Shown in pieces: positions 1 to 59,382 of a stretch of 61,817 bases of DNA. Each line of letters starts with the position of its first letter. Positions within the stretch are counted from its first letter, which is position 1. A program made the translations under genes and the position numbers. This DNA is from a virus: positions 1-61,817 of the IMG/VR virus record IMGVR_UViG_3300046001_005867; one strand, given 5' to 3'. The notes under the pieces were generated by a model that saw nothing but the letters and a program-made list of their open reading frames with translations, did not search any database and was not told the origin of the DNA.

Positions 1-962
1 TCTAAATTGTGGAAATACTCCTGATTAAATGTTAAGAATGTTACAAGTTCAGGCAGAATTTTTTCGTTCTTATCTGCCCATGAAGCATATCCTTCAATTG
101 TAGGAACATAGTTCTTAATAGTGAAACGGTCAGCAAGTGCAAAGTCAAAATCTGCTACGCCTTCCGCTTCTTCTGGTCTGTTACCCGCTGCAACAATAAC
201 CCATTTGTCTGGTAATTTGTAAGGCCCAACTTCTCCTTTTTGTACGAATTGCATGATAGAGTTTAGAACTGCTTTATTAGCTCTGTTCATCTCATCCATA
301 AATATGATACCACCTCTATTATCTTTACCATTATCTGGTGGTAATAATGCAGGGGGATTTGCTCTAGTGAATCCTTTACCAAAATTAGTAACTTTACCGT
401 CTTCGACCTCAACAGGAGTTATATCATGTCTACTAGGTATTCCTAAGAAATCTTCCGGATTCATAAATTGAAGATCCAACTTCATAACAGGTACACCAAG
501 CTCATCTGCTGCTTGTCCGACTATTTCAGTCTTACCAATACCAGGTGCTCCATAAATAAAGATGGGTTTAGCTCTTCCCCCTCTGTCTTTACTCCTATAT
601 AATTTAACTACGTCATTCTTTAATTGCTCAGCTGAAATGTTTCTAACACTCTGGTCTTCACCTGTGTATTCTAAAGGTATTCTTGCTTCCATTATAGGAT
701 TAATCCCTTGCTGATATTTCAACATTTGCTGATAGATAGGCCCATTTTCAGGTAAGAATAACATTGCTACAGGCATACCTTTCATTGGTCCAGAAGGTAT
801 TGGTTTAATTAAACCCTGTCCTATTGCTTTGATCATTTCTCCTGCCCAGCCACCAACTTTTTTTATAAGATTAGCTATACTGGAAAAGAAACCTTCGTTA
901 AGCTCCGGATTGTAAGATTCATTAACAAAATCATTGAAGTTTTTTATTCTACTATTTTTCAT
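1..962 (-). CDS. MoxR-like AAA+ ATPase, paralogue 1 (3' end outside window)
   Basis: The reading frame starts at the ATG at 962 and runs off the window edge with no stop, giving 320 residues. Walker A GAPGIGKT is at residues 138-145, Walker B GIIFMDE at 218-224, a sensor-1 Asn at about 261 (VAAGNR) and a likely arginine finger at 279. This is the MoxR/dynein-related AAA+ type, whose members usually remodel proteins together with VWA-domain partners. The N-terminus carries the shared leader (FNDFVNE, residues 9-15) followed by a second shared stretch, NEGFFSSIA. Its closest relative in the window is the ATPase at 25547-27136, similar from leader to core. It lies just downstream of the polymerase C-half, with a GGATATATA box 20 bases before its start. 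Inference: a capsid-packaged remodelling ATPase. Confidence 0.88.
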   Translation of the reverse strand, partial: MKNSRIKNFNDFVNESYNPELNEGFFSSIANLIKKVGGWAGEMIKAIGQGLIKPIPSGPMKGMPVAMLFLPENGPIYQQMLKYQQGINPIMEARIPLEYTGEDQSVRNISAEQLKNDVVKLYRSKDRGGRAKPIFIYGAPGIGKTEIVGQAADELGVPVMKLDLQFMNPEDFLGIPSRHDITPVEVEDGKVTNFGKGFTRANPPALLPPDNGKDNRGGIIFMDEMNRANKAVLNSIMQFVQKGEVGPYKLPDKWVIVAAGNRPEEAEGVADFDFALADRFTIKNYVPTIEGYASWADKNEKILPELVTFLTFNQEYFHNL

Positions 963-981
963 TTAATTTTTTTAGATCCTT

Positions 982-991
982 TTATATATCC
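982..991 (-). promoter_or_regulatory. GGATATATAA box upstream of ATPase 1
   Basis: Read on the minus strand, the box lies 20 bases before the ATG at 962, in the short gap after the polymerase C-half. It is one of the cleanest copies of the box repeated before many genes here. Promoter function is inferred from position and recurrence only. Confidence 0.4.
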
Positions 992-1002
992 AAAAAAATA
1001 AA

Positions 1003-2178
1003 TTAAAACAAAGCTCTTACAAGAAGTAGGTTGGGTGATAAAGGAGAGTATCCCATAGCTTCAATGAATCTATTTATTGGATCTAAAATTACTCGATTGA
1101 ATTGTTCGTCAAAATCTACGGGGGGAGCTAGCTCATAGGGATAAGCTCCGTTAAGATATCCAAATACATTATTCTCTCTCTCGTTGTTTACCTTAACATA
1201 ATAGTACTTAATCTTCTCAGATGATCTGATTAAGCTGTATTTAACTTTATGCTTGGAATTATTAAGAAGATAGTTGTGATATCCTGCTGCTCTTACGTGC
1301 ATTGGACATCCTTTTGCAACTTCGAATTTTGTTGTGTCGTTTACAATGAATTTCTCTATATTATTAACAGAAGTTCCTACAGATATTTGATCTGGGCTTT
1401 GTACCTTAAATTCCGATTTTATATTCTTAAGGATCTTTACAAATTCTCTAATATCAAAAGCTTTACCTTTCTCGAAAATATGCTGTAATAAGAACGTAAG
1501 TTTCTCTCTAGCGAAAGGAGCAGTACCACCTTGAGCTAATTCGATACCAGTCGATTTAACTTTAGAAAGCCTAGGAAATAAATCCTTATTAGGATCCTGC
1601 CAAGCTATATGTAATACATATTTCTTTTTACCCAAGAATATACCAGCATATGATAAACTCTCTAGCTCAAAATCCTGATAGTTATCTGTGCCCCATTTTT
1701 CAGAATAGATGTCATAGCATTTCTTAATGTATTCTTTAAGTCTAAATTCATTAAGTCTTTTTACAAATTCAAATGGTTCTAGATCTGAATCAAATTCACA
1801 AGAATCCATAACAGCTCCTAGATTGATATAATTGGAATCTGTATCTCCGTATATAATAAAGTCTAATGTTATTTTTCTGACATTACGAACTCCCATTTTT
1901 TCGTGAAGCTCCGTATCAAGATGCCACATATCATTGAAATACCTGTTTATTATCTTCTCAGCAAATTTCCAAATGTCCTGGCCTTGTAATGTAACACTCT
2001 CTGCAACATCTGTATTGAACAAAGCAAAATACTGATTCCCAGTCGCTCCGTATATACTGTTAAGTGTTAGCTTAATACCTTGTTCAGTATTATAGAAATC
2101 CGAAGATTTTTTTTGATACTCCGAAAGTTTTTGATTGAGCTCTTCTAAGCTCATTGACATGTAATCTATTTCTTCCAT
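1003..2178 (-). CDS. 43: DNA polymerase family B, C-terminal half (fingers end, palm, thumb)
   Basis: This 391-residue protein holds the second half of a T4 gp43-type replicative polymerase. Motif B is KLTLNSIYG at residues 36-44, and motif C YGDTDS at 110-115 carries the catalytic aspartates. There is no exonuclease domain and no motif A; both are in the protein at 20553-21959. The first 35 residues (MEEIDY, then SLEELNQKL) resemble the helix leading into motif B in T4 gp43, so the break falls near the tip of the fingers. The two halves total 859 residues against 898 for T4 gp43. The start lies one base after the clamp stop, so the two are translated as neighbours. No intein-type Cys or His-Asn junction residues are visible. 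Confidence 0.93.
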   Translation of the reverse strand: MEEIDYMSMSLEELNQKLSEYQKKSSDFYNTEQGIKLTLNSIYGATGNQYFALFNTDVAESVTLQGQDIWKFAEKIINRYFNDMWHLDTELHEKMGVRNVRKITLDFIIYGDTDSNYINLGAVMDSCEFDSDLEPFEFVKRLNEFRLKEYIKKCYDIYSEKWGTDNYQDFELESLSYAGIFLGKKKYVLHIAWQDPNKDLFPRLSKVKSTGIELAQGGTAPFAREKLTFLLQHIFEKGKAFDIREFVKILKNIKSEFKVQSPDQISVGTSVNNIEKFIVNDTTKFEVAKGCPMHVRAAGYHNYLLNNSKHKVKYSLIRSSEKIKYYYVKVNNERENNVFGYLNGAYPYELAPPVDFDEQFNRVILDPINRFIEAMGYSPLSPNLLLVRALF

Positions 2179-2179
2179 A

Positions 2180-4398: not shown

Positions 4399-5892
4399 TT
4401 AAGAGATATTATCGAAGTTAGTAAGTACTCTTGCTTTTTTATTAGCTCCTGTAGTTCCCGTAGATCCGGTAGTTCCAGTACTTCCAGTACTTCCAGTAGG
4501 GTTTGTTGAAGCAAGATCTACAGATCCTTGATAAACAAGGCCTTTCATTGCATCGTCCATAACCTCTTTTGGAATATCATCTAATTGTATTAATGCGTAA
4601 TAAAATTTAGTAGCATTCATCTGTTCTTTCTCAGCTTTAGATATGAAATCCTGCCATTCTTGATTGTCAGCAAATACTTGACATCCTGCTGACCAAGGTC
4701 CCACACAAATACCAACACCTTTCGTAGACGACCTGTGTATTTGCATTCCACAAGATTCAGTGTAAACCTCAGCTGGTTTGTAACTTTCAAATTTAGTTAC
4801 TCCGATAGGGTATCTTCCAACTTTAATTGGTTCACCCTCTACCATCATTTTATATTTATTGCCACTACCTAAGGAGCTTTCTTTAAGAATGTATAGGGTA
4901 TCTCCTGGAAGTTTAACACCAACACCTTTAGGATTCATTGGTTTCTTTCCGTAGTATGCTAAACTAGGTACAGTTGTTATTTGATATGGAGTTATTTTAT
5001 CTCCAAGACTTGCTGGTGGTATTGGTCCAGTTGGTCCAGTTGGTCCAGTTGGTACAATTGGTCCCGTAGGATTATTTTTGTTTTTAGCATCCTCTGCATC
5101 TTTTTTAGCCTTTTCAATTCTTCTTTTAAAAGCACCAGGGGCAAACCAACTACTTGGATTGTCGTCATCGTCCTCGTTTAGAATTGATAATATTTGATTC
5201 TTTTCTTCGTTCAATGAATAATATTCTTCGAAAGTAAAAACACCAGATTCAATCACGTAGTTAATAGAATTTAATCTATCTTCCATAGATTCATTCTTTT
5301 TGTCCTTTATTCTATCAAATACAGATTTATCTTTAACAGGTGTTTCTTTAACTGGTGCAGGTCCAGTAGATCCAGTAGGTCCGGTAGGTCCAGTGGCACT
5401 CACAACATCAGATCCATCTTTAGCATTACCAGGAATAAAATAAAGAGCATCCGTGAATCTATCCTGATTTGATGTCTCCTTCTTTATTTCAAGCTTATTT
5501 CTTATTCCTATTATTACTGCTCTTTTCTCATTCAATTCTGTTATAATTCTACTATAATCTCCCACTTTTTTTTCCTGAAGATAATTAAGAAGTATTTTAA
5601 TAGTCATTACAGAAAGAGGATTTTTCTCTAATTTATAAGGCTCGCTAGCACCACATCCTCTATACGGTAAAGATTCTTTAACTTCCTTGGTTTGGTCTAT
5701 AAAAGAATCCACACCTCCAGTAAGTCCAACATTTTCACCAAATAGACCTTTGATTATACCCGTTGCAATTCTGGATTTTGCTTCTCTTTCAGTCTCAGGT
5801 TTTCCTGTATCTGGTGATCCAGTTGCACTCGATGGTATTGCATCGTCTTGCTCGTTTATAAATTGTTTAAACGTAAATAATTTTTTGTCCAT
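4399..5892 (-). CDS. Leader-bearing L,D-transpeptidase-like (YkuD-type) protein with collagen-like linkers
   Basis: 497 residues with a mosaic build. Residues 1-14 are the shared leader (FTFKQFINE, then Q). A helical N-terminal region follows, then Gly-x-Thr linkers ([10 protein letters not shown] near 170, GPTGPTGP near 290, and a GSTGSTGTTG tail near 465). Between the last two is a beta-rich domain with His386 (IHRSS) and Cys404 (WSAGC), spaced like the His...SxGC pair of YkuD L,D-transpeptidases. Those enzymes act on peptidoglycan cross-links through a catalytic cysteine. The fit is motif-level only, so another cysteine hydrolase is possible. A GGATATATAG box sits 3 bases before the ATG. 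Confidence 0.6.
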   Translation of the reverse strand: MDKKLFTFKQFINEQDDAIPSSATGSPDTGKPETEREAKSRIATGIIKGLFGENVGLTGGVDSFIDQTKEVKESLPYRGCGASEPYKLEKNPLSVMTIKILLNYLQEKKVGDYSRIITELNEKRAVIIGIRNKLEIKKETSNQDRFTDALYFIPGNAKDGSDVVSATGPTGPTGSTGPAPVKETPVKDKSVFDRIKDKKNESMEDRLNSINYVIESGVFTFEEYYSLNEEKNQILSILNEDDDDNPSSWFAPGAFKRRIEKAKKDAEDAKNKNNPTGPIVPTGPTGPTGPIPPASLGDKITPYQITTVPSLAYYGKKPMNPKGVGVKLPGDTLYILKESSLGSGNKYKMMVEGEPIKVGRYPIGVTKFESYKPAEVYTESCGMQIHRSSTKGVGICVGPWSAGCQVFADNQEWQDFISKAEKEQMNATKFYYALIQLDDIPKEVMDDAMKGLVYQGSVDLASTNPTGSTGSTGTTGSTGTTGANKKARVLTNFDNIS

Positions 5893-5895: not shown

Positions 5896-5905
5896 CTATA
5901 TATCC
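5896..5905 (-). promoter_or_regulatory. GGATATATAG box immediately before the transpeptidase-like gene
   Basis: The box ends 3 bases before the ATG at 5892. If it were a -10 element, transcription would begin at or inside the start codon, giving a leaderless message. It could instead be a translation-related element. Confidence 0.35.
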
Positions 5906-8495: not shown

Positions 8496-9248
8496 TTAGA
8501 AATCTTTAAGAGATTGTATAATTTTAAATCTTTCTCTAGCATTAAGATCGTCAAGAGTTTCTTTACCAGTTTCTCTTCTAAGAAGCTTTTTGAATTTAAC
8601 CGGATCTGTAGTAGCACCTGATTTTTGTGCAAATTCTCTAACGTCTCTTCTTGAAGGAACTAAATCTAATACTAAAGCTCTTAGTGGAATATTATATTGT
8701 AATGCTAAGTTAGCTATCCTATTACCAGAAAAAAGATAATAGCTGTATTCTGAAGATGTTCTTGTCTCTCCAAAATTTATAAATTTAATCACAATAGGAG
8801 CAGGCAATGATAAAGTGCCTTTTCTTTTAAGATCATCTGATATTTTTATTAGAACATCTCCGTAAGATCTACCATATGCTCCAGCAATGATGTTATCAAA
8901 CTCATAAGCCATTAAATTCTGAATACTATTAACATCAAATCCATCCTCAGAAACAATAGGAATTGTTTCCATGTGTCCTTTTTTAAATGGCTCATTAATA
9001 TATTTAAAAAACTTGGTGGATCTAGCAGCAACTTTACCTATATCTTTATTACCAATAGTAATATTATGCTGGTAGAATTCCAATTTAGCTTTATCGTCAT
9101 AATGAGATATTTCCTCAGCAAGGTCTGGCATATCCCAGTTTATTTTTAGTTTACCTGCATAGCTCTTAACGGGAGCTTGAGTTCCCTCGCTTCCATCAGG
9201 AATATTCGAATCCTGCTCATTAACAAAATCGCTTAATCTTAAAATCAT
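8496..9248 (-). CDS. Leader-bearing protein of unknown function
   Basis: 250 residues. Residues 1-11 are the shared leader (LSDFVNE, then QDS). A low-complexity stretch follows, and then a compact domain. The segment YYLFSGNRIANLALQYNIPL near residue 180 is faintly like the nucleotide-binding loop of ParB/sulfiredoxin-type domains, but this is not enough to assign a function. It sits between the gp39-like topoisomerase subunit, whose stop almost touches its start region, and UvsE. Inference from the leader: carried in the capsid. Confidence 0.72.
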   Translation of the reverse strand: MILRLSDFVNEQDSNIPDGSEGTQAPVKSYAGKLKINWDMPDLAEEISHYDDKAKLEFYQHNITIGNKDIGKVAARSTKFFKYINEPFKKGHMETIPIVSEDGFDVNSIQNLMAYEFDNIIAGAYGRSYGDVLIKISDDLKRKGTLSLPAPIVIKFINFGETRTSSEYSYYLFSGNRIANLALQYNIPLRALVLDLVPSRRDVREFAQKSGATTDPVKFKKLLRRETGKETLDDLNARERFKIIQSLKDF

Positions 9249-9252: not shown

Positions 9253-9262
9253 GTATATATCT
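9253..9262 (-). promoter_or_regulatory. AGATATATAC box before the 8496-9248 gene
   Basis: The box begins inside the stop region of the gp39-like gene and ends four bases before the ATG at 9248, another example with almost no leader between box and start codon. Confidence 0.35.
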
Positions 9263-11488: not shown

Positions 11489-11974
11489 TTATTTAATGAA
11501 TGCTTCATCAATCATTTCTGGAGTAAGTTCAACTAAGATGTTTTTCTTTTTTAATGAATAAGGAATTGCTATAATAACATTTCTAGCTTCATCTACATCT
11601 TTAACTAAAAATTCAGAATCTACAAATATGTTTGTAGATGGTTCATCTCCAGTTCTGTCTCTGTTACCAAGATAAGTGTCGTTTTCTTCATCGTACTCAT
11701 CTTCCATATCTTTACCTGGATTGTATCCCATTTCAGAATAAATATCTTTCAAATATTGTGGAGCATTTTTACCTTGTGTAGGTATTTCTGCTACTAAAGA
11801 TATTTCGGAAAGAGTACCATTCATTACTTGAGTTAAAAGACTTCTTAATTCAGAAATTAATTGATTTCTTTTAATAGTTCTTTCTGGCTCAAAACTTGTG
11901 CCTCTGTATAAAGGGACTCCTGTATTATAAACTGATTGCTCATTAAGGAATTCGGAAAATTTTAAAATTCTCAT
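11489..11974 (-). CDS. Leader-bearing protein with a YRG motif
   Basis: 161 residues. Residues 1-12 are a textbook copy of the shared leader (LKFSEFLNE, then QS). Shortly after comes VPLYRGTSF; LYRG is the arginine motif found near the start of many ADP-ribosyltransferase domains, but the protein is short and no matching downstream STS or ExE motif is evident. The remainder is acidic with a final beta-rich piece. T4 packages ADP-ribosyltransferases such as Alt, so the resemblance is worth testing but is only suggestive. An AGATATATAA box lies 15 bases upstream. Confidence 0.7.
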   Translation of the reverse strand: MRILKFSEFLNEQSVYNTGVPLYRGTSFEPERTIKRNQLISELRSLLTQVMNGTLSEISLVAEIPTQGKNAPQYLKDIYSEMGYNPGKDMEDEYDEENDTYLGNRDRTGDEPSTNIFVDSEFLVKDVDEARNVIIAIPYSLKKKNILVELTPEMIDEAFIK

Positions 11975-11989: not shown

Positions 11990-11999
11990 TTATATATCT
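11990..11999 (-). promoter_or_regulatory. AGATATATAA box before the 11489-11974 gene
   Basis: The box lies 15 bases before the ATG at 11974, in the gap after the glycosyltransferase gene. Confidence 0.4.
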
Positions 12000-13301: not shown

Positions 13302-13949
13302 TTAAATTTCATTAATTTTATTAAATATCAGCTTAGTAATATCATCCAATTTATTTTCCCCTGATATTTCCAAAAATCCTCCTCCTTTTCTCATAGATTC
13401 TATCATAGGTAACGTCTGTTCATTATATTCATCCATTCTAATTTGGAATGCTTCCTCGTTTTTATCATCAGATCTTCCCGAAGATTTACTTCTTTCTTTT
13501 ATTCTTTCCCTTAATATCTTCTCTGCGACATTTAAAAAGAAAACATATTCTAATGAGATATTATTAATTCTACAAATCTCGTCAAATATAGCCTTCTGTT
13601 GAAGATTTCTAGGATATCCGTCAAAAATATATCCCTTAGGATCGCTATGTTTAGTTAATTTTTTAAGATAATCTATAAGCTCTTTACCTACAATCTCATC
13701 AGGAAGAAGATTACCAGTTTTCATTAACTTCTTGATCTCTTTATTATCAGAATCCCTTAATATATCCCCAGTTGAAATGTGTTTCCATCTCATACCTTTG
13801 GCTATAATTCTAGCTTGTGTTCCCTTACCACATCCCGGAGGTCCTGCTAAAATTATACATGGGGTTTTTTTGGTATCTTCTTTTCCATCTATATCTCCGT
13901 ATTCTTTTACGAATTCTTTAAAATTGCTAAGCTTCTTAGGTCTATTCAT
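13302..13949 (-). CDS. adk: Adenylate kinase-type nucleotide kinase with capsid-style leader
   Basis: 215 residues. The kinase core begins after residue 28: P-loop GPPGCGKGT at 36-44, then FDGYPRN, ERIKERSKSSGR and the DEYNEQTLPMI helix. The lid is short, so UMP/CMP kinase activity is a possible alternative. Residues 1-28 (LSNFKEFVKE, then YGDIDGKED) are extra compared with ordinary adenylate kinases, and the first part fits the shared leader. It would interconvert AMP, ADP and ATP, useful in the nucleotide-metabolism cluster with NrdA, which ends 12 bases upstream. The leader would make it a packaged enzyme active at injection. Confidence 0.9.
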   Translation of the reverse strand: MNRPKKLSNFKEFVKEYGDIDGKEDTKKTPCIILAGPPGCGKGTQARIIAKGMRWKHISTGDILRDSDNKEIKKLMKTGNLLPDEIVGKELIDYLKKLTKHSDPKGYIFDGYPRNLQQKAIFDEICRINNISLEYVFFLNVAEKILRERIKERSKSSGRSDDKNEEAFQIRMDEYNEQTLPMIESMRKGGGFLEISGENKLDDITKLIFNKINEI

Positions 13950-16591: not shown

Positions 16592-16592
16592 A

Positions 16593-19074: not shown

Positions 19075-20055
19075 TTAAAAATCCGCATCCATTGTAAAAG
19101 CTTTTCCTGTATTTCCATTATCTTTGGTACTGTCCATAACTCCTGATTTCTGATATGAGCCAACTCTACCCTCGAAGAAATTTCCTTTGTTTTCTAAAGC
19201 AATATTTATCATAAAATCAAAAGGACATTTAGTATCATAGATTTTAGAACATCCCAGAGATGTTAAAAGCCTATCTGCTACAAATTCAATATACTCGCAC
19301 ATAAGATCAGCGTTCATACCAATTAATCTAACAGGTAAAGATGAAGTAACAAACTCCTTCTCGATCTCTACAGCTTCACTAATAATAGCTTTCACTGTTT
19401 CCTCTGGAAGTTTATTTTCGATGTGTTTAGTGTAAAGTAAACAAGCAAAATCACAATGTAGACCTTCGTCTCTAGAGATTAATTCATTGGCAAAGCAAAG
19501 ACCTGGCATAAGTCCTCTTTTCTTTAGCCAGTATATAGAACAGAAAGATCCAGAAAAGAAAATACCTTCAACAGCAGCAAATGCAATCATATTCTCAGTG
19601 AATGTTCCATTATCAATCCATTTCATTGCCCAATCTGCTTTTCTTTTAACAGCAGGAACAGTATCAATAGCATTAAATAGATGTTCTTTCTCTTCCTCAT
19701 CAGATATGTAAGAATCTATAAGAAGTGAATAAACCTCCCCGTGTATATTCTCAATAGCTAATTGAAATCCATAAAAGCATCTAGCTTCTGGATACTGAAC
19801 TTGATTGAAAAAGTTAGCTGCAAGATTTTCATTAACTATCCCATCAGAGTTATTAAAGAAAGCAATTACGTTCTTAATAAAATATCTTTCGTTATCATTA
19901 AGCTTATCTCTCCAATGAGAAATATCTTGTGCTAAATCAATCTCTTCTGCTGTCCAGAAAGAAGCTTCTGCAGTTTTGTACATCATCCAGATATCTGGTT
20001 CTTGTACTGGGAATAATGAGAATCTTCTAGGATTCGGCGTAAGTAACTTTTCCAT
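19075..20055 (-). CDS. nrdB: Class I ribonucleotide reductase, small subunit (NrdB)
   Basis: 326 residues. The di-iron and radical residues match class Ia spacing: Asp71, Glu102, His105 and radical Tyr109 ([11 protein letters not shown]), with the second ligand set in AVEGIFF and [10 protein letters not shown]. The C-terminal tail FTMDADF is the usual docking end for NrdA. It generates the tyrosyl radical used by NrdA (13962-16331). An AATATATAAA box stands 15 bases before the ATG. Confidence 0.96.
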
Positions 20056-22013: not shown

Positions 22014-22319
22014 GTGAAAAAAATTCTAACCTTCAAATTATTCGAACAGATTTATCTAAATGATATTAAACCTTTCGACTCAGGACAAAGCTATCCTAAA
22101 GGATTAAGATTTGCAAATAGGGACGAAGCTCTAAAATCAATAAGAAGATTACAAGAAATGTTGGATAAAAAAGAAATAGAATTAAAAGATGCTATTATAG
22201 CATCGTATATAATGTCACAAAGAGCTAAGTTACACAAGAGCGCTAAACCTGGTATAAAAGAAGGAGGATCAATCTGGGAAAATTATCTTATCCAATTGAG
22301 ACAGAAAGAAAAATTATGA
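22014..22319 (+). CDS. Small leader-bearing protein
   Basis: 101 residues, GTG start. Residues 1-12 resemble the shared leader (ILTFKLFEQ). The rest is basic and helical (EALKSIRRLQEMLDKKEIEL) with no recognised domain. It is one of only four plus-strand genes, placed between two minus-strand blocks. Its end overlaps the end of the convergent gene at 22314-22895 by six bases, so the two transcripts would be antisense at their 3' ends. Packaging is inferred from the leader only. Confidence 0.7.
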   Translation: MKKILTFKLFEQIYLNDIKPFDSGQSYPKGLRFANRDEALKSIRRLQEMLDKKEIELKDAIIASYIMSQRAKLHKSAKPGIKEGGSIWENYLIQLRQKEKL

Positions 22320-22895
22320 TTTTTTAAAGAAAGCAATAAATTCTTTAATCATCTCTCGGAAATCGTAATTATCTTCATTCTTATCTAAAGAAACACCCTC
22401 TATAGATTTCTTTGCCCATTCTTTCATATAATTCAAATATGTTTTAAATGATCCGGGTATTCTTTCTGTATCACCTTTAAAGATATCCTTTATTGTCTTA
22501 GAATATCCCATCATGAATTTATCTCTAATTGATTTTTCAGACTTCTCTAAATCACAATAATCAAAAAACGTAGCTGTTATGTCCCAAACATTATCTGTAG
22601 TTACATCATCAAAATTTTTAGAGCTCCTAACTTTACCGTCATTAGCTATTATCTTACAAACACAAATGCTTTTCTTATCTGGTGATTTTGCTTTATCAAA
22701 ATAAAAATCCAATCTAGCTTCTTCCTCTACTTTAGGTTTAACATAAACGATAGTCATTATGCCTACCTGGCTAAAAAGCATATATCCATTACCTTTTATC
22801 TTATCAAAAGAAGCTTCGTTATCTACAATATACCAATTAGTTGTTACTGCACTTACTCCTTCAAAAAGACTTCTAAATGATCGTATATGATTCAT
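22314..22895 (-). CDS. Leader-bearing protein of unknown function
   Basis: 193 residues. The N-terminus IRSFRSLFEG is a variant of the shared leader with LFE as the candidate cleavage site. The body is a mixed alpha/beta domain with an aromatic-rich core (NWYIVDNEASF, then YMLFSQVGIMTIVYV). No family is recognised. It is the last gene of the long minus-strand block that begins upstream with UvsW; its stop overlaps the convergent plus-strand gene. Confidence 0.72.
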   Translation of the reverse strand: MNHIRSFRSLFEGVSAVTTNWYIVDNEASFDKIKGNGYMLFSQVGIMTIVYVKPKVEEEARLDFYFDKAKSPDKKSICVCKIIANDGKVRSSKNFDDVTTDNVWDITATFFDYCDLEKSEKSIRDKFMMGYSKTIKDIFKGDTERIPGSFKTYLNYMKEWAKKSIEGVSLDKNEDNYDFREMIKEFIAFFKKS

Positions 22896-24410: not shown

Positions 24411-24728
24411 TCATTTTGTTTCATTAATCCTGAAAGATTTTAAAACTCTCTTGCCTAAAGCGGTCAATTCAAAGTGGTTAGCATCTTCTTCTTGTATTTT
24501 ATACTTGATATATTTCTTCTGATTTCTAACCCAAGACATACTGGGTTTCTTACCTGAAGCATCTTCTGGTATACTATCTAAGAATTCTAATAGTTCTTTC
24601 TTGGTTACTTTTTCTTTCTCTCCTATGAATGAAAGTACCTTAGTAGTTGTTACTGAAGGCTTAGCCCAAGCTATAGGTATCCTAGATTCTAATATAAATT
24701 CATCATATGAAAGAATATTATTAATCAT
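24411..24728 (-). CDS. Leader-bearing small protein with winged-helix-like features
   Basis: 105 residues. The leader is LSYDEFILE followed by S. The rest (VTTTKVLSFIGEKEKVTKKELLEFL, then FELTALGKRVLKSF) reads like a winged-helix DNA-binding domain: two helices, a turn, and a closing 'LTALGKRVL' strand typical of that fold. No family is assigned. The start overlaps the upstream gene's stop by 8 bases, showing tight coupling. Confidence 0.72.
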   Translation of the reverse strand: MINNILSYDEFILESRIPIAWAKPSVTTTKVLSFIGEKEKVTKKELLEFLDSIPEDASGKKPSMSWVRNQKKYIKYKIQEEDANHFELTALGKRVLKSFRINETK

Positions 24729-25254
24729 GGTCTCTTCTAGAATAAATTAATGTTTTCTTTGTTGCTCCCTCTTGTGAGCTCCATTTACCGTAGCTCCATT
24801 CATCCATAAGAGATTTAACTTTATCTGAATACTCTTCAAAATCCATATCAAGATTTAAAGGTACCTCATCATAAATAATAGAAACCTTAGGATTAGATTG
24901 TAAGTAATCTTTTATACATTCACCAACAATCTTATAGAATCTCATATATTCAGATTTAGTCAATGTGAATTGATCATCTTCTCTTGATTTAAAATCCGAA
25001 TCTTTCACTAAAAAATCATCCATCACAGATTCTCTGATAGGCTCTACGGAAAGAACAGCATAACTATTCTCTGCAGATTCTATGGTGATATTTCTAGATA
25101 GTTTACCAAGATTTATTACAAATCCTAGATCCTCCTCTTCTCCCTCAATCTTAAAAAAATATTGAGAAAGTTTACCGTCTTTCTTTTTTACAAAGAAGTC
25201 TCTTCCGTATCCATCTTCATTTAAGAAATTTTCAAATAATTTAATGTGTTTCAT
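24721..25254 (-). CDS. Leader-bearing protein of unknown function
   Basis: 177 residues. The leader is IKLFENFLNE followed by DGY. The body is an alpha/beta domain with two-fold hints (VINLGKLSRNITIESAENSY; VSIIYDEVPLNLDMDFEEYS). It is not recognised. An AGATATATAG box ends three bases before the ATG, making it a likely transcription start within the cargo gene block. Confidence 0.72.
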   Translation of the reverse strand: MKHIKLFENFLNEDGYGRDFFVKKKDGKLSQYFFKIEGEEEDLGFVINLGKLSRNITIESAENSYAVLSVEPIRESVMDDFLVKDSDFKSREDDQFTLTKSEYMRFYKIVGECIKDYLQSNPKVSIIYDEVPLNLDMDFEEYSDKVKSLMDEWSYGKWSSQEGATKKTLIYSRRDHD

Positions 25255-25257: not shown

Positions 25258-25267
25258 CTATATATCT
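25258..25267 (-). promoter_or_regulatory. AGATATATAG box before the 24721-25254 gene
   Basis: The box ends three bases before the ATG at 25254, in the 16-base gap after the 25271-25543 gene, again almost touching the start codon. Confidence 0.36.
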
Positions 25268-25270: not shown

Positions 25271-25543
25271 TTAAAAACCTCTCTCCGGAATTTTAGCGGA
25301 TGTATTAGGTATGTATTGATCTTTCTTTCTTCTTTTGAATATTTGTCCCTTGGTTAAATTACCGTAGTATCTATCTATTAGATTCCATCCCTCTTCTAAC
25401 TCAGTCACATCAGCATCTTCTAATTTAGAAAACTCCTCTCTAACCATGTTTATTTTTTCCATGGCTTCTTCTAATAATCTCTTACTATTAGAAAGGTCAT
25501 ACTTTGATGTATGACCTTCCATTATTTCACTGAATTTTTTCAT
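25271..25543 (-). CDS. Small helical leader-bearing protein
   Basis: 90 residues. The N-terminus MKKFSEIMEG is a short version of the shared leader with IME as the candidate cleavage site. The body is a single long helix pair (SKRLLEEAMEKINMVREEFSKLE), then a basic tail. No family is recognised. It sits four bases after the ATPase at 25547-27136 and is probably translated with it. Confidence 0.68.
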   Translation of the reverse strand: MKKFSEIMEGHTSKYDLSNSKRLLEEAMEKINMVREEFSKLEDADVTELEEGWNLIDRYYGNLTKGQIFKRRKKDQYIPNTSAKIPERGF

Positions 25544-25546: not shown

Positions 25547-27136
25547 TTAAAATTGAACTCCAATTTCTGCTCCCCATTGATCAGCTAATGGTCCTAAACA
25601 TTCCATAGTTGCATAATCTTCTAATAAATGAGGATGTTTTTGGAAGAATGATGTGATTGCCATTGCTCCCATCTCTGGTGCATTAACTCTTCTTAACCAT
25701 TTTGAAAAGTTACAAGACTCAGTGCTTGTTAATTTTGGTAATTCCGTGCTTTTTCTAATTACAGCAGTGAATAAAGCGTGCTCATAATCAGTTCTATTAG
25801 TAGTACCTGATTTTTTAGTTTTTCCTTGGTATTCACTAGGAATAGGAGCTCTATCAGGATCAGTAAAAGGAAGCGATAATTCTTTAACTGGGATCTGCTG
25901 AGCTATCTTATAGAAATCTAAGAACATTACAGCAGCATCTCTACCTACGTTCTTCTGAAATTCTCTTGCTAATACGCTATGAGGCACTTCTGATATTCCT
26001 TTTTGTTCATACTCTTGAAGAACCCTTCTAACTGCTCTAGAAGCATCTTCCCAAGCTCTAGGAGTAGGGTATTTTAATTTCTTAGCAGTTGGATCATTCA
26101 TGTGGAACCAACTAGCATCAAAATCTAAGAAATCAAGAAGTTCTGGTAGGAATATATCAGATAATCCAGGAGTAGTCTCTACATATTTTCTCATTGATGC
26201 TGGATTAGTAATAAGATTGACAATCTCAAATCTATCCTGTAATGCAGATCCCATTTCAACAATACCACCCTTAGGGTCATCAACTTTTCTATTTCCTGCT
26301 GCTACGATATACCATCTATTAGGCATGTCATAATTAACACCAAGTCTTCTTTGCTGAGCTAATAATAAGAATATCTTTTGTACTTCAACAGGCATACGGT
26401 TGAATTCATCAATAAATAAGATACCCCCTTTTCCACCTTTTCCGTTATCATATGGTAAAATATCCGCACTTACGTTAGATCTTGTAACCCCCCTACCTAA
26501 TGGATTTTCTGCTGATGGAGCTTCAATATCTACCACTTTAGGTACACCAGCAAAGTCTACTGGTTCTGCACTTAATCCATCGCAATTCAATAGGTTTAAC
26601 CCAAGCTCATCGCATATTTTAGCTATGATTTGTGTTTTACCAATACCAGGTGCTCCATAAATAAAATATGGTTTAACTTTTCTTAATTCCCTTTGTAATC
26701 TTGCTTTTTCGTCCATATCAGTTGTGGCATCCATTTGATCTGCAATGGATAAACAAGCTTTAAGACTTCTTCTAATATCTGATTCTATTTCTTCGGGAAG
26801 TGAATTAGGTACATCATCCTCTCTATCCCATTCCAAAGGAATCACTGCCTCGTTTGCTACGGAAGGATTATTGATATTGTTCATATCATAATAAGGTGTT
26901 CCGCGATAGAATTTTTCAACTTGATCTGAGATAGATCCTTCATCTGAATTAAATAACACATAAGCAGGTAATCCCTTTTTAGGACCAGATGAGATCATTC
27001 TAATAATGCCATTTCTTACTGCGGTCATAAGCTGTTTAGCCCATTGTGAAATCTTGCTACCGATATTAGATAATACCCCTTCGTCTACATTGTAAGATTC
27101 ATTTACGAATTCTTTAAAGTTATAGATTTTTTTCAT
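25547..27136 (-). CDS. MoxR-like AAA+ ATPase, paralogue 2
   Basis: 529 residues, complete. Leader IYNFKEFVNE (residues 4-13), the shared second stretch DEGVLSNIGSKIS, a helical linker, then the ATPase: Walker A GAPGIGKT at 161-168, Walker B ILFIDE at 239-244, sensor-1 Asn282 and an arginine finger in LQDRFEI. It is directly followed by a small leader protein and directly preceded by the VWA and HExxH genes, the layout seen in bacterial MoxR/VWA systems where the ATPase remodels targets presented by the VWA protein. It resembles the ATPase at 1-962 along its whole length. It is predicted to be capsid cargo. Confidence 0.92.
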   Translation of the reverse strand: MKKIYNFKEFVNESYNVDEGVLSNIGSKISQWAKQLMTAVRNGIIRMISSGPKKGLPAYVLFNSDEGSISDQVEKFYRGTPYYDMNNINNPSVANEAVIPLEWDREDDVPNSLPEEIESDIRRSLKACLSIADQMDATTDMDEKARLQRELRKVKPYFIYGAPGIGKTQIIAKICDELGLNLLNCDGLSAEPVDFAGVPKVVDIEAPSAENPLGRGVTRSNVSADILPYDNGKGGKGGILFIDEFNRMPVEVQKIFLLLAQQRRLGVNYDMPNRWYIVAAGNRKVDDPKGGIVEMGSALQDRFEIVNLITNPASMRKYVETTPGLSDIFLPELLDFLDFDASWFHMNDPTAKKLKYPTPRAWEDASRAVRRVLQEYEQKGISEVPHSVLAREFQKNVGRDAAVMFLDFYKIAQQIPVKELSLPFTDPDRAPIPSEYQGKTKKSGTTNRTDYEHALFTAVIRKSTELPKLTSTESCNFSKWLRRVNAPEMGAMAITSFFQKHPHLLEDYATMECLGPLADQWGAEIGVQF

Positions 27137-27160: not shown

Positions 27161-27170
27161 TTATATATCT
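27161..27170 (-). promoter_or_regulatory. AGATATATAA box before ATPase paralogue 2
   Basis: The box lies 24 bases before the ATG at 27136, next to the end of the VWA gene. It would allow the ATPase to be made separately from the VWA/HExxH pair. Confidence 0.4.
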
Positions 27171-27174: not shown

Positions 27175-28158
27175 TTATATAGTTTCCACTTCTTTATTTG
27201 CCAGTGTGATATCTATTCTTTCACCAAAAGGTTGATCGTTTCCAAAAGGCTCTCCATTAAAAGATAAGAATACCCAAATACATCTATCATCATAACCATC
27301 TATTCCGTATTCGGATGATTTAGGAAATTCTGCAAATCCATCAGTGAAGTATATAAATACCGTTGGGGTTTCACCCACGTCAAGTATGTTTTTTTCCACC
27401 CATTTAAAAGGAGGCCAAAAATTAGTTCCCCCACCTCCAGCAATCTTATTAAAATCTGGAGTATCTCCTGGTTCTAAAATATCTGGGGCATAAACTTGGG
27501 TATCACAATAAAGTATTACTGTTTTTTGTGGAGCGTAATCCTCTGTAATTTTCATTGTCTCTGAAAGAAATTGCTCAATCATAGGTCTAGTTATAGATCC
27601 TGATGTGTCTATAGCAATCACTAAGTTCTCAAAGTCCTCTTTATATCTTTTATATCCGTATTGAGCATCACCGCCTCCAATAAATCTTCTAGCAGGTAAT
27701 TTATATTTAGTTTTTGATACTGCATCATCAATATATTTCTCAAGTTCAGATTTCCAATCAATAACAGGTCTTTTTAATTTATCTAATGCTCTTTTAACAG
27801 AAGCAGGTACGTTTCCAGCATTTTCTGATCTTTTTAATGATGTCTCCCATTCTTCTCCTAATGTTTCACCATTTAATCCAGAATCTCCACCAAGATCTCC
27901 TAGAGATCCTGTTGGTAATACTCCCCCAACATTAGAAGTTCCTCCACCTCCAGTTAAGCCTCTTTCGAAAGTATCCTCATCATCTTCTTCTTCTGGTTTT
28001 CCATCTTGATCCCTTTTTTTCTCATCCTCATCTTCTTTCCATTTATCAACGTTTTCAGGATCTCCAATAGGTGGTGGTGGCGGAGTTGGTCCTGTTCCTC
28101 CCGTTCCTGCAGGTGGATCCATTTCTTGGATTCTTATTCCGGTTATTGTTGTTTTCAT
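27175..28158 (-). CDS. VWA-domain protein with intact MIDAS (DUF2201 VWA-like)
   Basis: 327 residues. The N-terminal 130 residues are low complexity (Pro-rich, then acidic, then Gly/Ser-rich). The VWA domain starts near 178 with the metal-ion-dependent adhesion site complete: DTSGS at 184-188, Thr245 in the GGGGTNF loop and Asp273 in YFTDG. The pairing with a downstream MoxR ATPase and an upstream HExxH protein matches the bacterial DUF2201 arrangement. The first residues (GIRIQE, then M) only loosely fit the packaging leader. Expected role: metal-dependent binding of a target protein for the ATPase. The gene starts 10 bases after the HExxH gene. Confidence 0.9.
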   Translation of the reverse strand: MKTTITGIRIQEMDPPAGTGGTGPTPPPPPIGDPENVDKWKEDEDEKKRDQDGKPEEEDDEDTFERGLTGGGGTSNVGGVLPTGSLGDLGGDSGLNGETLGEEWETSLKRSENAGNVPASVKRALDKLKRPVIDWKSELEKYIDDAVSKTKYKLPARRFIGGGDAQYGYKRYKEDFENLVIAIDTSGSITRPMIEQFLSETMKITEDYAPQKTVILYCDTQVYAPDILEPGDTPDFNKIAGGGGTNFWPPFKWVEKNILDVGETPTVFIYFTDGFAEFPKSSEYGIDGYDDRCIWVFLSFNGEPFGNDQPFGERIDITLANKEVETI

Positions 28159-28167: not shown

Positions 28168-29004
28168 TTATAAATTGTCTTGCTCGTATTTTTTTCTAAT
28201 ATATTCAGGAACCTTAGATTTTGGTATAGGATCATAATCCACTGAATCATTATCTTCATCTACGCTATTTACCACACCGTAGTTACCACTAGCTGGGTCG
28301 AATATAATATCTCCGACTACAGGTATCTGTGGAGGAGCTGGTGGTGGTGGAGGTGGTGGAGGATTAACAGCTTGCGAATCTTCCGGATCTGGTTGAAATC
28401 CATTTTTAATTAAAATACCATAAATGCTATCAGCAGATAATCCAACAAATTCTTTATCGTAAGAAACTCTTCCACATCCAGGATATAATGCTCCCTTTGG
28501 CATTTTACCTATAGAGTCTCCTCTCTTTTCGCTAGGCTTAGGATTACCTGGATTTGATTCATCGACTGGTGTAAGCATCTGATTTAAAGCATAATCTGTA
28601 GCATAATTCCATATACTTACTGTTTTAGAATCCTTTCCTGGCATTCTTAGGAAATGTAATAAAGCACAATGTAAAACCTCATGGGCTATTACCCACATTA
28701 TTTCATCATCAGTATGTTCATGTACAAATCCTGGGCTGTAGTGAATACTTACTCCATCAGTACACATTGTTTTTATACCTCTATTTTCTCTAATGATTAA
28801 TCTAGACAAAAGACCTCCAAAGAAAGGATATTGTGCGTTTAGAAAGAAAACTGCAGCCCTCATTTTTTTGAAAGCTACCGGATCATATTTTCTTTTCTCC
28901 ACCTCGTCCGTAAATGTAGCTTCGTTAATTTTATTGTATAGTGAGTTGTCAAATTTTTGATATTCGTATAGTGAAAAATCTTTAAAGCTTAATATCTTCT
29001 TCAT
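28168..29004 (-). CDS. Putative zinc metallopeptidase-like protein (HExxH, DUF2201_N-type) with leader
   Basis: 278 residues. Leader ILSFKDFSLYE, then a domain with SRLIIRE, GVSIHYSPGFV and the zinc motif HEVLH at 108-112, followed by IWNYATDYALNQML, the N..A.D...N element typical of the DUF2201 N-terminal domain. The zinc ligands are intact, so peptidase activity is possible, but for this family it is predicted rather than proven. A polyproline linker (PPPPPPPAPP) leads to a small C-terminal beta domain (VVGDIIFDPASGNYGVV). It is the first gene of the HExxH-VWA-ATPase triad. Confidence 0.88.
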   Translation of the reverse strand: MKKILSFKDFSLYEYQKFDNSLYNKINEATFTDEVEKRKYDPVAFKKMRAAVFFLNAQYPFFGGLLSRLIIRENRGIKTMCTDGVSIHYSPGFVHEHTDDEIMWVIAHEVLHCALLHFLRMPGKDSKTVSIWNYATDYALNQMLTPVDESNPGNPKPSEKRGDSIGKMPKGALYPGCGRVSYDKEFVGLSADSIYGILIKNGFQPDPEDSQAVNPPPPPPPPAPPQIPVVGDIIFDPASGNYGVVNSVDEDNDSVDYDPIPKSKVPEYIRKKYEQDNL

Positions 29005-32256: not shown

Positions 32257-32856
32257 TTATGCGTTATTTGGTTGGAATATAGGTTGATTAGGATTTTTTT
32301 GTTTTGTATAATAAAGGTAAGCTCTATTCATTCCTATATCATCTAGAGCAGGTACCTGTCCTTTATTAACCTGAGCTTTTTGATAAAGCTCGGTGATATT
32401 ATCTTCTAATTGTTGCTCAGTTTTAATGTTCGGTAGTTCATTTTTAGCAAAATCCTCATTTGTGTGTCTCATGAACTCAACATCTACATCTTCATCCTTA
32501 GCTGGTACTCTTTTAGAAATCTCATATTTAGTAGGTCCGAATACTCTTTTAAGTACTCCTGGTACAATAGCCGGAAGACCGAATAACATTTCATATCCAG
32601 TATTTAAACCCCCGCCTCTAACAGCTCTATTTTGTCTTGTTATATCTTGTCCTGCTTGTGCAATATTGTTTAGCTTGTCTTCGATGTACCCAAAGAACCT
32701 TTGAGTTTTTTGTAATATACTAGCATCTTCAGGTAGGTTATAATGATTTTTAGCCCTATCACCATATGTCTTAGCATCATTTCCTAAGTGTCTGCTAAAG
32801 AATAATTCTTCAGATTCATTAATACAGAAATCTCTATATTCTTTGATGTTTCTCAT
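32257..32856 (-). CDS. Leader-bearing protein of unknown function
   Basis: 199 residues. The leader is IKEYRDFCINE followed by SEE, the only one with a cysteine. The body is helical with a glycine-rich turn (RAVRGGGLNTGYEMLFGLPAIVPGVL) that could form a short amphipathic or membrane-touching segment. Not recognised. It opens the cargo block: a GGATATATAA box stands 19 bases before the ATG, after UvsW. Confidence 0.7.
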   Translation of the reverse strand: MRNIKEYRDFCINESEELFFSRHLGNDAKTYGDRAKNHYNLPEDASILQKTQRFFGYIEDKLNNIAQAGQDITRQNRAVRGGGLNTGYEMLFGLPAIVPGVLKRVFGPTKYEISKRVPAKDEDVDVEFMRHTNEDFAKNELPNIKTEQQLEDNITELYQKAQVNKGQVPALDDIGMNRAYLYYTKQKNPNQPIFQPNNA

Positions 32857-32875: not shown

Positions 32876-32885
32876 TTATATATCC
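32876..32885 (-). promoter_or_regulatory. GGATATATAA box at the head of the cargo gene block
   Basis: The box lies 19 bases before the ATG at 32856, in the 34-base gap after uvsW. It would drive the run of leader-bearing genes towards 23950, where the strong terminator lies. Confidence 0.42.
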
Positions 32886-56783: not shown

Positions 56784-56867
56784 TTGATTTTCCTTTTTTT
56801 GATATATATCCTGTATTACTTACAATAGAAAAAGACAGGACAATCATTAAAGAAAGAAACATAGAAT
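56784..56867. promoter_or_regulatory. Divergent promoter region: structural genes and phoH
   Basis: 84 bases separate the minus-strand structural genes (start 56783) from phoH (start 56868). A perfect palindrome GATATATATC at 56801-56810 lies 17 bases before the minus-strand ATG and reads the same in both directions. No second clear box precedes phoH. Confidence 0.5.
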
Positions 56868-57569: not shown

Positions 57570-57578
57570 TTATTTTAG

Positions 57579-59099
57579 ATGAAAAGAATAAAAAGTTTTA
57601 ATGATTTTATCGATAGTAATGTTAATGAAGGCATTTTTAGTAAAATAGCTAGGAGCTTTACCGGAGCCGATAGAAAAGAAATAAATGCTCAGGTAAAGCT
57701 ATTAAGAGACATTTACGAGGGATTAAATGACGAAGAAAAGAAAGAATTTTCCGATAGACTACAGCAAAAAATAGATAAAAATAATCAAGGAGGCTCGAAC
57801 ATAGCTATTAGGTTACGTGAGAAATTTAAAACCATACTCGATTCAGGTGATTGGTATTCAGAACTAGGAGAAATATCATCAGATGATGCCGAATATCTAA
57901 TTATGTATATTAGCTCACTCTATCAATACATAATTAGAGAATATGATAATATAAAAGAAGTAGTTCAAAAAAATAAACTAACTAAAGAGTTAGAAAAATA
58001 TAATGAAGATGTCGCTAAATATAACAAAATTTCTTCATTTATAAAAAATGATTTTGAATCAAAAAAAGAAGAGTTTAATAAATTCTTTAGCTGTATCGAC
58101 GGGAGTCCTAATTTTAAGAACAGAGACACATATGCTTTTATAGATAAATTTAATGCTTCTGATGGAAACAAAAAAATATTAGAAACAGACATATTTAAGA
58201 GATTCAAGGCTTATACTATTGAGTTAAATCATAAATTAAAAAGCTTTGAATGGAACTCGGGCGAATTTGTAAATACAGTTGAACTCTATGATAAAGTCCA
58301 AAGTAGATACGAAGAACTCTTCAATAAGTCACGGGGTATGTCTATAATACCAGATAAACCCAACTTTCAAATTTCGGGATGGGGTATGGACTTATTAACA
58401 TGGGCTGAGGAAAATCTGAAAGATAAAACAATATCAGAGATGGCATTGGATATGACAATGAATAATTTGGATTATGTGAATGGAATGGAATATGTTGAAA
58501 TAGGAACTGAAGATACTAAAGTGGCCATAAAAAGTGAAGATGGATTAATTGGTGGAAATATTGTTTATTCTGGGCAAAACTTTAATAATCTTAATTTAGA
58601 AAATGTATCATACCTTATCAATAAAGAAGGAGGATATAGGGAAAGGGTTTCAGGAAAAGTTATGTATGTAACTAATAATATACCATATGCTTTCTATTAT
58701 TGCTATTTGAGATTCGGATTAGATGCTGATAGGCCTATCCCGAATTTATCTCAAAATTTATTTCCAACAGTTTATAAAATAACACTAAAAAAAGGAACTA
58801 AGTTTTTCCATAAAAGCGATAGCGATATAGACCAAAGAGAATACAAATTAGCTAGTATTTGCGGAATGTCTGGTTATCACTCAGGAAATGAAACAGTGAA
58901 CGGTCAGAGCGTTGAAATAACATTAATTAACAGCGATTGTATTGATAAAATAGAGGCAATTAAACCAGGAGAGTTAATTTCATATTTTGAAAGTCCCGAA
59001 TTTACTAAAGATAACCAACTTATAAAGGGAGAAAACTATAAAATAGATCAAGGCGAAATAAACTGGTATAAAGGATTAGTTTCACGGTATGTTATATAA
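57579..59099 (+). CDS. Large leader-bearing protein with coiled-coil N-terminal half
   Basis: 506 residues. The start (IKSFNDFIDSNVNEGIFSKIA) combines the shared leader with the NEG-F-S-x-I stretch otherwise found only in the two MoxR-like ATPases. Residues about 50-270 are helical and charged. The C-terminal part (about 310-490) is alpha/beta with FPTVYKITLKKGTKFFHKSD and YVTNNIPYAFYYCYLRF. The 'x-T-x-x-P-x-A-x-x-Y' pattern is reminiscent of ADP-ribosyltransferases, but I could not line up a full catalytic set. It is the plus-strand candidate for capsid cargo, in the way T4 packages Alt. Confidence 0.75.
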   Translation: MKRIKSFNDFIDSNVNEGIFSKIARSFTGADRKEINAQVKLLRDIYEGLNDEEKKEFSDRLQQKIDKNNQGGSNIAIRLREKFKTILDSGDWYSELGEISSDDAEYLIMYISSLYQYIIREYDNIKEVVQKNKLTKELEKYNEDVAKYNKISSFIKNDFESKKEEFNKFFSCIDGSPNFKNRDTYAFIDKFNASDGNKKILETDIFKRFKAYTIELNHKLKSFEWNSGEFVNTVELYDKVQSRYEELFNKSRGMSIIPDKPNFQISGWGMDLLTWAEENLKDKTISEMALDMTMNNLDYVNGMEYVEIGTEDTKVAIKSEDGLIGGNIVYSGQNFNNLNLENVSYLINKEGGYRERVSGKVMYVTNNIPYAFYYCYLRFGLDADRPIPNLSQNLFPTVYKITLKKGTKFFHKSDSDIDQREYKLASICGMSGYHSGNETVNGQSVEITLINSDCIDKIEAIKPGELISYFESPEFTKDNQLIKGENYKIDQGEINWYKGLVSRYVI

Positions 59100-59109
59100 T
59101 TTTAATAAT

Positions 59110-59382
59110 ATGATAAATCTAAAGACATATAAAAAATTCCAATCAAATTCCGATTGGACAGAAGTTTATAATAAACTGGAAAGAAATTTTAATTTTCAGG
59201 ATTTTAAACAGGCTTTAAAATTTATAAATGAGATTTCAATAATATGTGAAGAGGAAAAACATCATCCCGAAATTAATTGGATTTATAACAAAATATCTCT
59301 CAAGTTATCAACTCATGATGCAGGAGATATAATAACTGAAAAGGATATAAAATTGGCTAAATTAATAGATGAATGTTATTGA
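59110..59382 (+). CDS. Pterin-4a-carbinolamine dehydratase (PCD/DCoH family)
   Basis: 90 residues from the ATG at 59110, 10 bases after the preceding stop; an ATG at 59089 would overlap that gene and add an atypical heptapeptide. The catalytic signature is intact: HHPE at 51-54, NWIYNKISLKLSTHD with THD at 68-70, and ITEKDIKLAKLID. The family dehydrates 4a-hydroxytetrahydrobiopterin, regenerating the cofactor of aromatic hydroxylases. Some bacterial members have other roles. No hydroxylase is in the window. The first residues (LKTYKKF) recall the leader, but without a clear cleavage Glu. It is a likely host-derived gene. Confidence 0.88.
   Translation: MINLKTYKKFQSNSDWTEVYNKLERNFNFQDFKQALKFINEISIICEEEKHHPEINWIYNKISLKLSTHDAGDIITEKDIKLAKLIDECY

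Follow-up and report, generated by a model that had tools for sequence, protein, structure and literature searches.

A short N-terminal leader common to unrelated proteins of a T4-like virus most likely marks a much enlarged internal-protein system

Introduction

Why should proteins as different as an AAA ATPase, an adenylate kinase and a metallopeptidase begin with nearly the same residues, and does this beginning address them to the virus head? The question is raised by the IMG/VR virus record IMGVR_UViG_3300046001_005867, a stretch of 61,817 bases (33% G+C) that was analyzed over its whole length and is referred to here as the window. It has one main coding strand and carries T4-type replication genes (topoisomerase subunits, primase, helicase, single-strand binding protein and a family B polymerase). 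In T4 the prohead protease gp21 cuts after (L/I)xE. T4 packages its internal proteins by means of a conserved capsid-targeting sequence, their content being otherwise diverse (PMC3012670), and gp21 removes this sequence (PMC5694885). The original prediction for the window held that some 15 unrelated proteins carry a leader of this kind, are packed into the head and are delivered with the DNA.

We followed this up in the window, in two contigs of the same species, G001 (3300042863_002243, 148,938 bases) and G002 (3300042446_002147, 123,769 bases), both encoding an AAA protein 100% identical to that of the window gene at 25547, and in a diverged relative, G009 (3300044953_000377, 148,217 bases), with an adenylate kinase 70% identical.

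Results

The window proteins have in common a short N-terminal segment and are otherwise unrelated. All eleven copies that had been described as clear are present at the gene starts claimed for them (Table 1), as are two of the four weaker ones, at 22014 and 22895, so that 13 of the 15 claimed leaders stand. At 22895 (FRSLFE) the anchors of the leader are retained even in a relative of 30% identity, and the leader at 22014 (FKLFE) is kept in G009 at 69%. In two details the motif departs from its original description: the distance from the second anchor to the Glu is 0 to 6 residues, and the first anchor may also be Y or L. The leaders are 11-17 residues long, with an aromatic-x-x-aromatic inside.

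Table 1. Leader genes of the window and the boxes upstream of them (an arrow marks the predicted cut; clear and weaker are the grades of the original prediction)
Feature	Position	Gene (strand)	Remarks
Leader MKNSRIKNFNDFVNE↓S, clear	918-962	3..962 (-)	MoxR-type AAA ATPase, cut by window end; complete in G001
Leader MDKKLFTFKQFINE↓Q, clear	5851-5892	4399..5892 (-)	497-aa protein with collagen-like repeats
Leader MILRLSDFVNE↓Q, clear	9216-9248	8496..9248 (-)	Variable Pro/Ser linker, then conserved domain, fold unassigned
Leader MRILKFSEFLNE↓Q, clear	11939-11974	11489..11974 (-)	Small protein, fold unassigned; relatives: NE↓SVYN
Leader MNRPKKLSNFKEFVKE↓Y, clear	13902-13949	13302..13949 (-)	Adenylate kinase
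Leader MKKILTFKLFE↓Q, weaker	22014-22046	22014..22319 (+)	Short form; start codon GTG
Leader MNHIRSFRSLFE↓G, weaker	22860-22895	22314..22895 (-)	Short form; FNDFCLFE in relative at 30% identity
Leader MINNILSYDEFILE↓S, clear	24687-24728	24411..24728 (-)	
Leader MKHIKLFENFLNE↓D, clear	25216-25254	24721..25254 (-)	
Leader MKKIYNFKEFVNE↓S, clear	27098-27136	25547..27136 (-)	Second MoxR-type AAA ATPase
No leader		27175..28158 (-)	VWA-like half of DUF2201; probable partner of AAA ATPase
Leader MKKILSFKDFSLYE↓Y, clear	28963-29004	28168..29004 (-)	Metallopeptidase half of DUF2201, HEVLH at residue 108
Leader MRNIKEYRDFCINE↓S, clear	32815-32856	32257..32856 (-)	
Leader MKRIKSFNDFIDSNVNE↓G, clear	57579-57629	57579..59099 (+)	Long-spaced form, then GIFSKIARSF
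GATATATA box	983..990 (-)	3..962 (-)	28 nt upstream of leader gene
GATATATA box	5897..5904 (-)	4399..5892 (-)	Upstream of leader gene
GATATATA box	9254..9261 (-)	8496..9248 (-)	Upstream of leader gene
GATATATA box	11991..11998 (-)	11489..11974 (-)	Upstream of leader gene
GATATATA box	25259..25266 (-)	24721..25254 (-)	Upstream of leader gene
GATATATA box	27162..27169 (-)	25547..27136 (-)	Upstream of leader gene
GATATATA box	32877..32884 (-)	32257..32856 (-)	Upstream of leader gene

A strict pattern, M-x(1-10)-F-x-x-F-x(1-6)-E, matched 10 of 54 gene starts in the window (genes of at least 60 amino acids) and none of 271 internal methionines (p = 7.6e-9), while shuffled window starts gave a mean of 0.74 and a maximum of 6 matches in 2000 shuffles; eight of the ten are claimed leaders. 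For the pooled species set the figures were 20/168 starts and 3/745 internal methionines, with 15 of the 20 counted as leaders (those at 10597, 41616, 50092, 86672 and 103729 are not), and for G009 16/159 and 6/625. The core motif [FY]xxF[ILVFM][NLASKF]E was found seven times among the first residues of window proteins (972 start positions), each time in a claimed leader, and once in 19,004 later residues (p = 4.8e-9); in the species it was found 12 times among first residues and three times in 50,572 later ones.

Because a motif that was seen first can flatter itself, a motif-free test was also run, in which the first 20 residues were compared pairwise, proteins homologous elsewhere were excluded, and pairs with a score of at least 32 were counted. 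N-terminal pairs numbered 15 in the window (n = 51), against none for internal and none for shuffled segments; the corresponding counts were 54 against 5 and 8 in the species (n = 162) and 38 against 2 and 4 in G009 (n = 155). A loose pattern, [FYL]xx[FYL], proved too permissive because of an internal-methionine background of about 6%, and was applied only together with orthologues; it then matched 25 of 116 reciprocal pairs and 12 of 287 conserved internal methionines, in a list that keeps likely false positives. By reading, some 25-30 proteins of the species are tagged. An RNA ligase gene in G001 (135723, LNKYVNE) was excluded from this count, as its beginning is probably the natural one of an RNA ligase. 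We also observed a second common element, [NDE]E(G/N)(I/V/F)(F/L)(S/A), within the first 60 residues of 5 of 168 species proteins (window genes 57579, 25547 and 3-962; G001 1831 and 10005) and nowhere in 43,516 later residues; it may mark a second cut site with an amphipathic helix behind it.

The leader ends are close to the gp21 rule. All 13 window leaders carry E at P1 and one of V (in five), L or I at P3, and eight carry N at P2, so that cleavage after [VLI]-x-E is predicted. A genome devoid of any prohead protease gene would have spoken against the original prediction, but a gp21-type protease is present in the same species, as a Peptidase_S77 gene in G002. It adjoins a gp23-type capsid gene in G002 and G009 (two of ten related contigs searched, the others being fragments), and gp23-type major capsid proteins were found in G001, G002 and G009. 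The species protease scores 42.8 bits with Peptidase_S77 and matches PHROG 207, head maturation protease (1.4e-38); its S80 score of 35.5 bits is also above the cut-off, and lower than that for S77. H85 and S140 of T4 gp21, which we take to be its catalytic residues, align with a His and a Ser in each of the nine proteases compared, among them MaF61 ORF140, a protein that the family search had missed. Beyond its protease part the gene (L020 14643-16679) extends as a lengthy series of short repeats (YSEYLAENLDKNIS), which probably represents a core or scaffold fused to it. Around E65, T4 gp23 reads FGSFLTE↓AEI, and its propeptide has 65 residues (PMC5694885). In the capsid protein of the species our guess for a maturation site, made without alignment to T4 E65, would be HSLNE↓SAGAYN.

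The octamer GATATATA is the most enriched upstream of virion-block genes (blocks set by position, with the leader set excluded), and likewise upstream of leader genes. In the species, 12 of 26 leader genes (a set that includes three head-core starts read as leaders) have it no more than 60 nt away, compared with 12 of 142 other genes (p = 1.3e-5). In G009, where the leader genes were picked by pattern, with at least one probable false positive among them, the counts are 10 of 24 and 14 of 135 (p = 5e-4). Seven of the 12 minus-strand boxes in the window lie 12-33 nt upstream of leader genes (Table 1); over the whole window the excess is modest, 13 boxes against 7.6 expected, a number reached in 3 of 100 shuffles. 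The protease gene is preceded by the box in the species and in G009, and none of 11 replication-type genes of the species (one of them DnaJ-like) has it or a shifted form. We read it as a putative late promoter.

Comparison with G009 indicates that the leaders are conserved as peptides. In 11 supported leader proteins (genes 962 and 57579 and both unsupported copies were left out) 87 of 125 leader residues (0.70) are identical, against 0.615 for the remainder; in 40 other proteins the figures are 67% for residues 2-14 and 71.5% for the remainder. In an alignment of five sequences of the 4399-5892 protein, no column before residue 32 is invariant except M1, F8, F11 and E14, and in relatives of the 8496-9248 protein the leader is conserved like the downstream domain, with the linker between them variable. 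The adenylate kinase has some 20-29 extra residues before the point where solved kinases begin, and its leader, NFKEFVKE or NFKEFVRE, is kept in seven other loci, one of them of the same species; the kinase of locus L012 (58% identical) has no such leader. By this comparison the leaders are removable extensions, with the adenylate kinase as the case.

Four of the 13 supported leader proteins of the window have a clear Pfam family: the two MoxR AAA ATPases, the metallopeptidase half of DUF2201 and the adenylate kinase. This bears out most of the cargo originally named; for a peptidoglycan enzyme, also named, there was no such family match in the window. The metallopeptidase (HExxH) and VWA domains of DUF2201 are both present, in two adjacent window genes. 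Outside the window, leader proteins of the species gave an OmpA-like match and matches below cut-off to a CHAP domain and a nucleotidyltransferase, and a second metallopeptidase half, with HEILH, adjoins the complete copy of the first AAA gene. A second MoxR-DUF2201 set is seen in G001 (L041, 122798-126179), with a leader on the AAA protein (window gene 3-962) and on the metallopeptidase half (FINE↓SYS); its third gene, without a leader, may be the VWA half, as read without a search. In related ATPases outside the clade (PA5oct, OLIVR1) the P-loop comes soon after the start, with no leader before it; the PA5oct record carries the note 'ESI-MS/MS'.

Two further ideas on cargo came from short motifs. 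For 11489-11974 a possible ADP-ribosyltransferase like T4 Alt (LYRG) was considered and set aside, as there was no significant PDB or BFVD match (best E 0.041); its AlphaFold2 model reached a pLDDT of 66.6 from five sequences, with the leader below 50. An L,D-transpeptidase is not claimed for 4399-5892 (H..SAGC), which has no Pfam family and no solved relative and matches PHROG 3000 (function unassigned), with weak tail matches besides. A structure model of 8496-9248 was unusable (pLDDT 39).

The capsid protein matches 31 GenBank records: metagenomic ones, with LR756500 first, Lak megaphages, whose host is Prevotella, and phages that infect Tenacibaculum, Sphingomonas (phage PAU), Chryseobacterium or Flavobacterium. 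Several of these relatives have leaders in a dialect of their own. In LR756500 (MKYIxxYxxF(I/L)xE; n = 604) the motif-free test gave 183 N-terminal pairs at a score of at least 40, compared with 1 internal and 2 shuffled. In PAU the form MKTLxxLYE opens 18 of 292 starts and none of 1163 internal methionines; this pattern was written after the head block had been read, earlier patterns having missed PAU, and the motif-free comparison serves as the check. Nine of the 18 PAU leader genes fall within a 16-gene head block (p = 1.2e-8, with block limits set after the leaders had been seen), and PAU_154 is annotated 'internal capsid protein'. Several PAU leaders at 106051-113735 show two tandem candidate sites, LYE↓(A/S)KLNE↓(A/S). 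The Chryseobacterium phage MA9V-2 has four proteins beginning MKxFxxFxNE. In Lak-B6, read with TAG as Gln (571 frames called), there are 57 N-terminal pairs at the same score against 3 internal, about 15 proteins have the form KxLYES...K(L/I)NE or (L/M)xESLFDD, and the capsid protein contains AKLNE↓DAF; some common N-termini in Lak resemble signal peptides or paralogues rather than leaders. Four adjacent Lak-B6 frames (231551-233625) start MK(I/V)Q(V/I)R..VFETNSSSTH. The internal proteins of T4 itself are too rare to register in the motif-free test.

The DUF2201 protein of LR756500 joins metallopeptidase and VWA in one chain and starts MKYIKSYENFIFE, in that phage's own dialect; its gene adjoins one for an AAA ATPase with a less typical start. 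As judged from these starts, the cargo is the same as in the window and the tag is different.

A scan of IMG/VR with one back-translated pattern returned at least 120 stretches. Among the 120 matches listed, the motif stands at an open-frame start in 108; the frames concerned number 154, and their residues 13-24 continue in 137 different ways. When the pattern-matching frames were removed, a looser leader was still found in 140 of 1702 frames of the listed loci and in 2 of 968 frames of 71 random loci, the two sets being unmatched for taxon and G+C. By reading, 13 of 15 consecutive frames are tagged in L205 (6258-13537) and 14 of 15 in L164 (1-9502). Five of ten proteins tested from the arrays of other contigs have a family, namely cREC, zeta-toxin-like, cytidylyltransferase-like (two) and GNAT-like. 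Of 22 leader contigs of at least 90 kb, 17 have an S77 match (16 above the curated cut-off), compared with 2 of 17 random contigs of at least 50 kb (p = 5e-5) and 1 of 6 random contigs of at least 90 kb (p = 0.013). The 22 are all contigs of that size among 80 matches listed, minus two of this species; G022, G024 and G027 among them appear to be a single virus.

Some other features of these genomes were observed along the way. The family B DNA polymerase is encoded in two genes about 18 kb apart (window 1003-2178 and 20553-21959, matching PHROG 262 at 494-840 and 109-499), and in G009 (L031-L033) the helicase, topoisomerase and polymerase genes look interrupted, relative to the window, by intein or homing-endonuclease frames. 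A pterin-4a-carbinolamine dehydratase gene (PF01329, 88 bits) lies at window 59089-59382, directly behind a leader gene. An apparent island of sugar-nucleotide and glycosyltransferase genes, read without a family search, lies between head and tail genes in G002 (about 30-54 kb; L021-L022).

Discussion

Our results favor the hypothesis that the leaders are capsid-targeting sequences of the T4 internal-protein type that are removed by cleavage, and we regard this as very likely. It agrees with the cleavage consensus, with the S77 protease in the same species, with the box that leader genes and head genes have in common, and with relatives built on the same design. The tagged proteins would be made late, together with the head proteins; the aromatic-x-x-aromatic of the leader would dock the cargo to the prohead core, and the S77 protease of the phage would cut the leader after [VLI]-x-E. 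The freed cargo would stay in the head during DNA packaging and, by analogy with T4, would accompany the DNA into the next host cell and act early there. Packaging and cleavage we strongly infer from sequence; injection of the cargo into the next cell, which leans on the T4 analogy, is probable.

However, several results should be set against this interpretation. Two of the 15 claimed copies, at 25543 (MKKFSEIMEG) and 32252 (MKKFSLVIEK), fail as leaders, the second aromatic being missing. Two of the ten strict-pattern matches in the window, starting at 20055 and 37112, are not leaders; they are the gene 19075-20055, read without a search as ribonucleotide reductase, and the single-strand binding protein gene. 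The VWA-like gene at 27175, next to two tagged genes, has no leader; in LR756500 the VWA domain is fused behind a tagged metallopeptidase, a possible reason why the split-off half is untagged. The box also precedes 12 non-leader genes of the species and, at -41, the topoisomerase gene of G009. No S77 protease matched within the window, in a search in which that of T4 scores. The motif-free test gave no clear leader enrichment in PTm1, which has an S77 protease, or in MaF61. Finally, the idea that leaders copy the propeptide of their own capsid protein is no more than a lead: the observed sum was attained in 9 of 720 label permutations, but MA9V-2, Lak and T4 supply the signal, and in this species and LR756500 the leaders resemble their own capsid protein no better than other capsids.

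The most serious alternative is that the tag does target the prohead, with the cargo degraded or consumed in assembly as core, scaffold or maturation helper (a role in which the MoxR-metallopeptidase set might serve), and little or nothing injected. Head-core genes of the species start similarly (PVFE↓S, LLE↓S), the core proteins of T4 are cleaved into fragments by gp21 (PMC5694885), and a role in virion assembly has been proposed for a MoxR-vWA-peptidase pair of jumbo phages (PMC7824862). Nevertheless, an adenylate kinase, or the GNAT-, cREC- and zeta-toxin-like domains in the arrays of other contigs, would be implausible as scaffold, and we consider this alternative doubtful. It is much less probable that the tag addresses another place, such as membrane, tail or replication site, with the E-ending incidental, since the leaders resemble the start of T4 IPII and IPIII, MKTYQEFIAEA, whose targeting role is established (PMC3012670, PMC7411985), co-occur with S77, cluster in the head block of PAU, and have their box in common with the protease gene. 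Recent recombinational copying of the start region, or chance or composition without function, is hardly credible: identical residues in PAU leaders do share codons more often than expected (0.702 against 0.522), and some L205 array genes look like paralogues, but in the window codon sharing is no higher than codon usage predicts (0.521 against 0.537), so that these leaders are not recent DNA copies, in LR756500 it is lower than predicted (0.694 against 0.775), homologous pairs were excluded from the motif-free tests, the shuffle tests of the window also speak against it, and the leaders are better conserved in G009 than the remainder of their proteins.

If capsid targeting is accepted, a broader picture suggests itself, which we hold to be reasonably likely. 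T4-like phages of Bacteroidota and related megaphages including Lak may possess an expandable delivery platform, in which a phage-specific tag sends any protein into the host before gene expression. Each lineage would keep a dialect suited to its own protease, and its gene arrays would bring together twelve or more tagged effectors. On this picture the tag alone would predict hundreds of injected effectors from sequence. Many giant-phage proteins have no assigned function, and those that act first are likely to be counter-defence and takeover proteins. If the tag means what it seems to, a simple sequence rule would identify the proteins injected by large groups of phages, among them gut megaphages, would give the MoxR-metallopeptidase sets, the adenylate kinase and many orphan proteins a testable role, and would provide new address tags for delivering proteins with phage heads. 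No description of such tagging for these phages was found in the full-text literature searched, whose coverage leaves out most subscription journals and bioRxiv.

Three known systems invite comparison. The group 2.2 jumbo phages have a MoxR AAA and vWA-metallopeptidase pair (PMC7824862), and the AAA_5/MoxR, DUF2201 metallopeptidase and VWA parts are likewise found here; here, however, two separate genes encode the halves of DUF2201, G001 has a further set, and the AAA protein and metallopeptidase are tagged. Capsid leaders on these two proteins argue for packaging, and not only for assembly in the cell. With phiKZ and SPN3US the present phages have in common a large number of head proteins, several of which are cut by the prohead protease and ejected in those phages (PMC5694885, PMC13282480). 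The protease there is of the S80 type and several propeptides exceed 100 residues, whereas here the S77 score is the higher one and the leaders are short.

The closest likeness is to T4. As in IPI, IPII, IPIII and Alt, a short leader with aromatic-x-x-F and a terminal E stands on unrelated proteins, together with an S77 protease and a gp23-type capsid, and the long-spaced form resembles T4 IPI (MKTFKEF...ITE); in T4, IPI counters a restriction system, and one E. coli strain is a host on which the phage requires IPIII (PMC9391042). The defining features of the T4 internal proteins, as far as sequence can address them, are found in the present system. It differs from T4 in its dialect (FVNE↓S), in its tagged ATPases, metallopeptidase and adenylate kinase, in the long repeat region of its protease gene, and in the number of tagged proteins in the species, estimated by reading, compared with four ejected proteins in T4 (PMC7411985). 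The original claim of a set far beyond that of T4 holds against these four; it does not set the system apart from phiKZ-type giants, which package many head proteins too (PMC13282480). In conclusion, the phenomenon is real, and most likely a much enlarged internal-protein system of the T4 type. Its kind is known from T4; what is new is the scale, the self-consistent dialects of PAU, Lak-B6, LR756500 and MA9V-2, and metagenomic arrays in which 13 or 14 of 15 consecutive genes are tagged.

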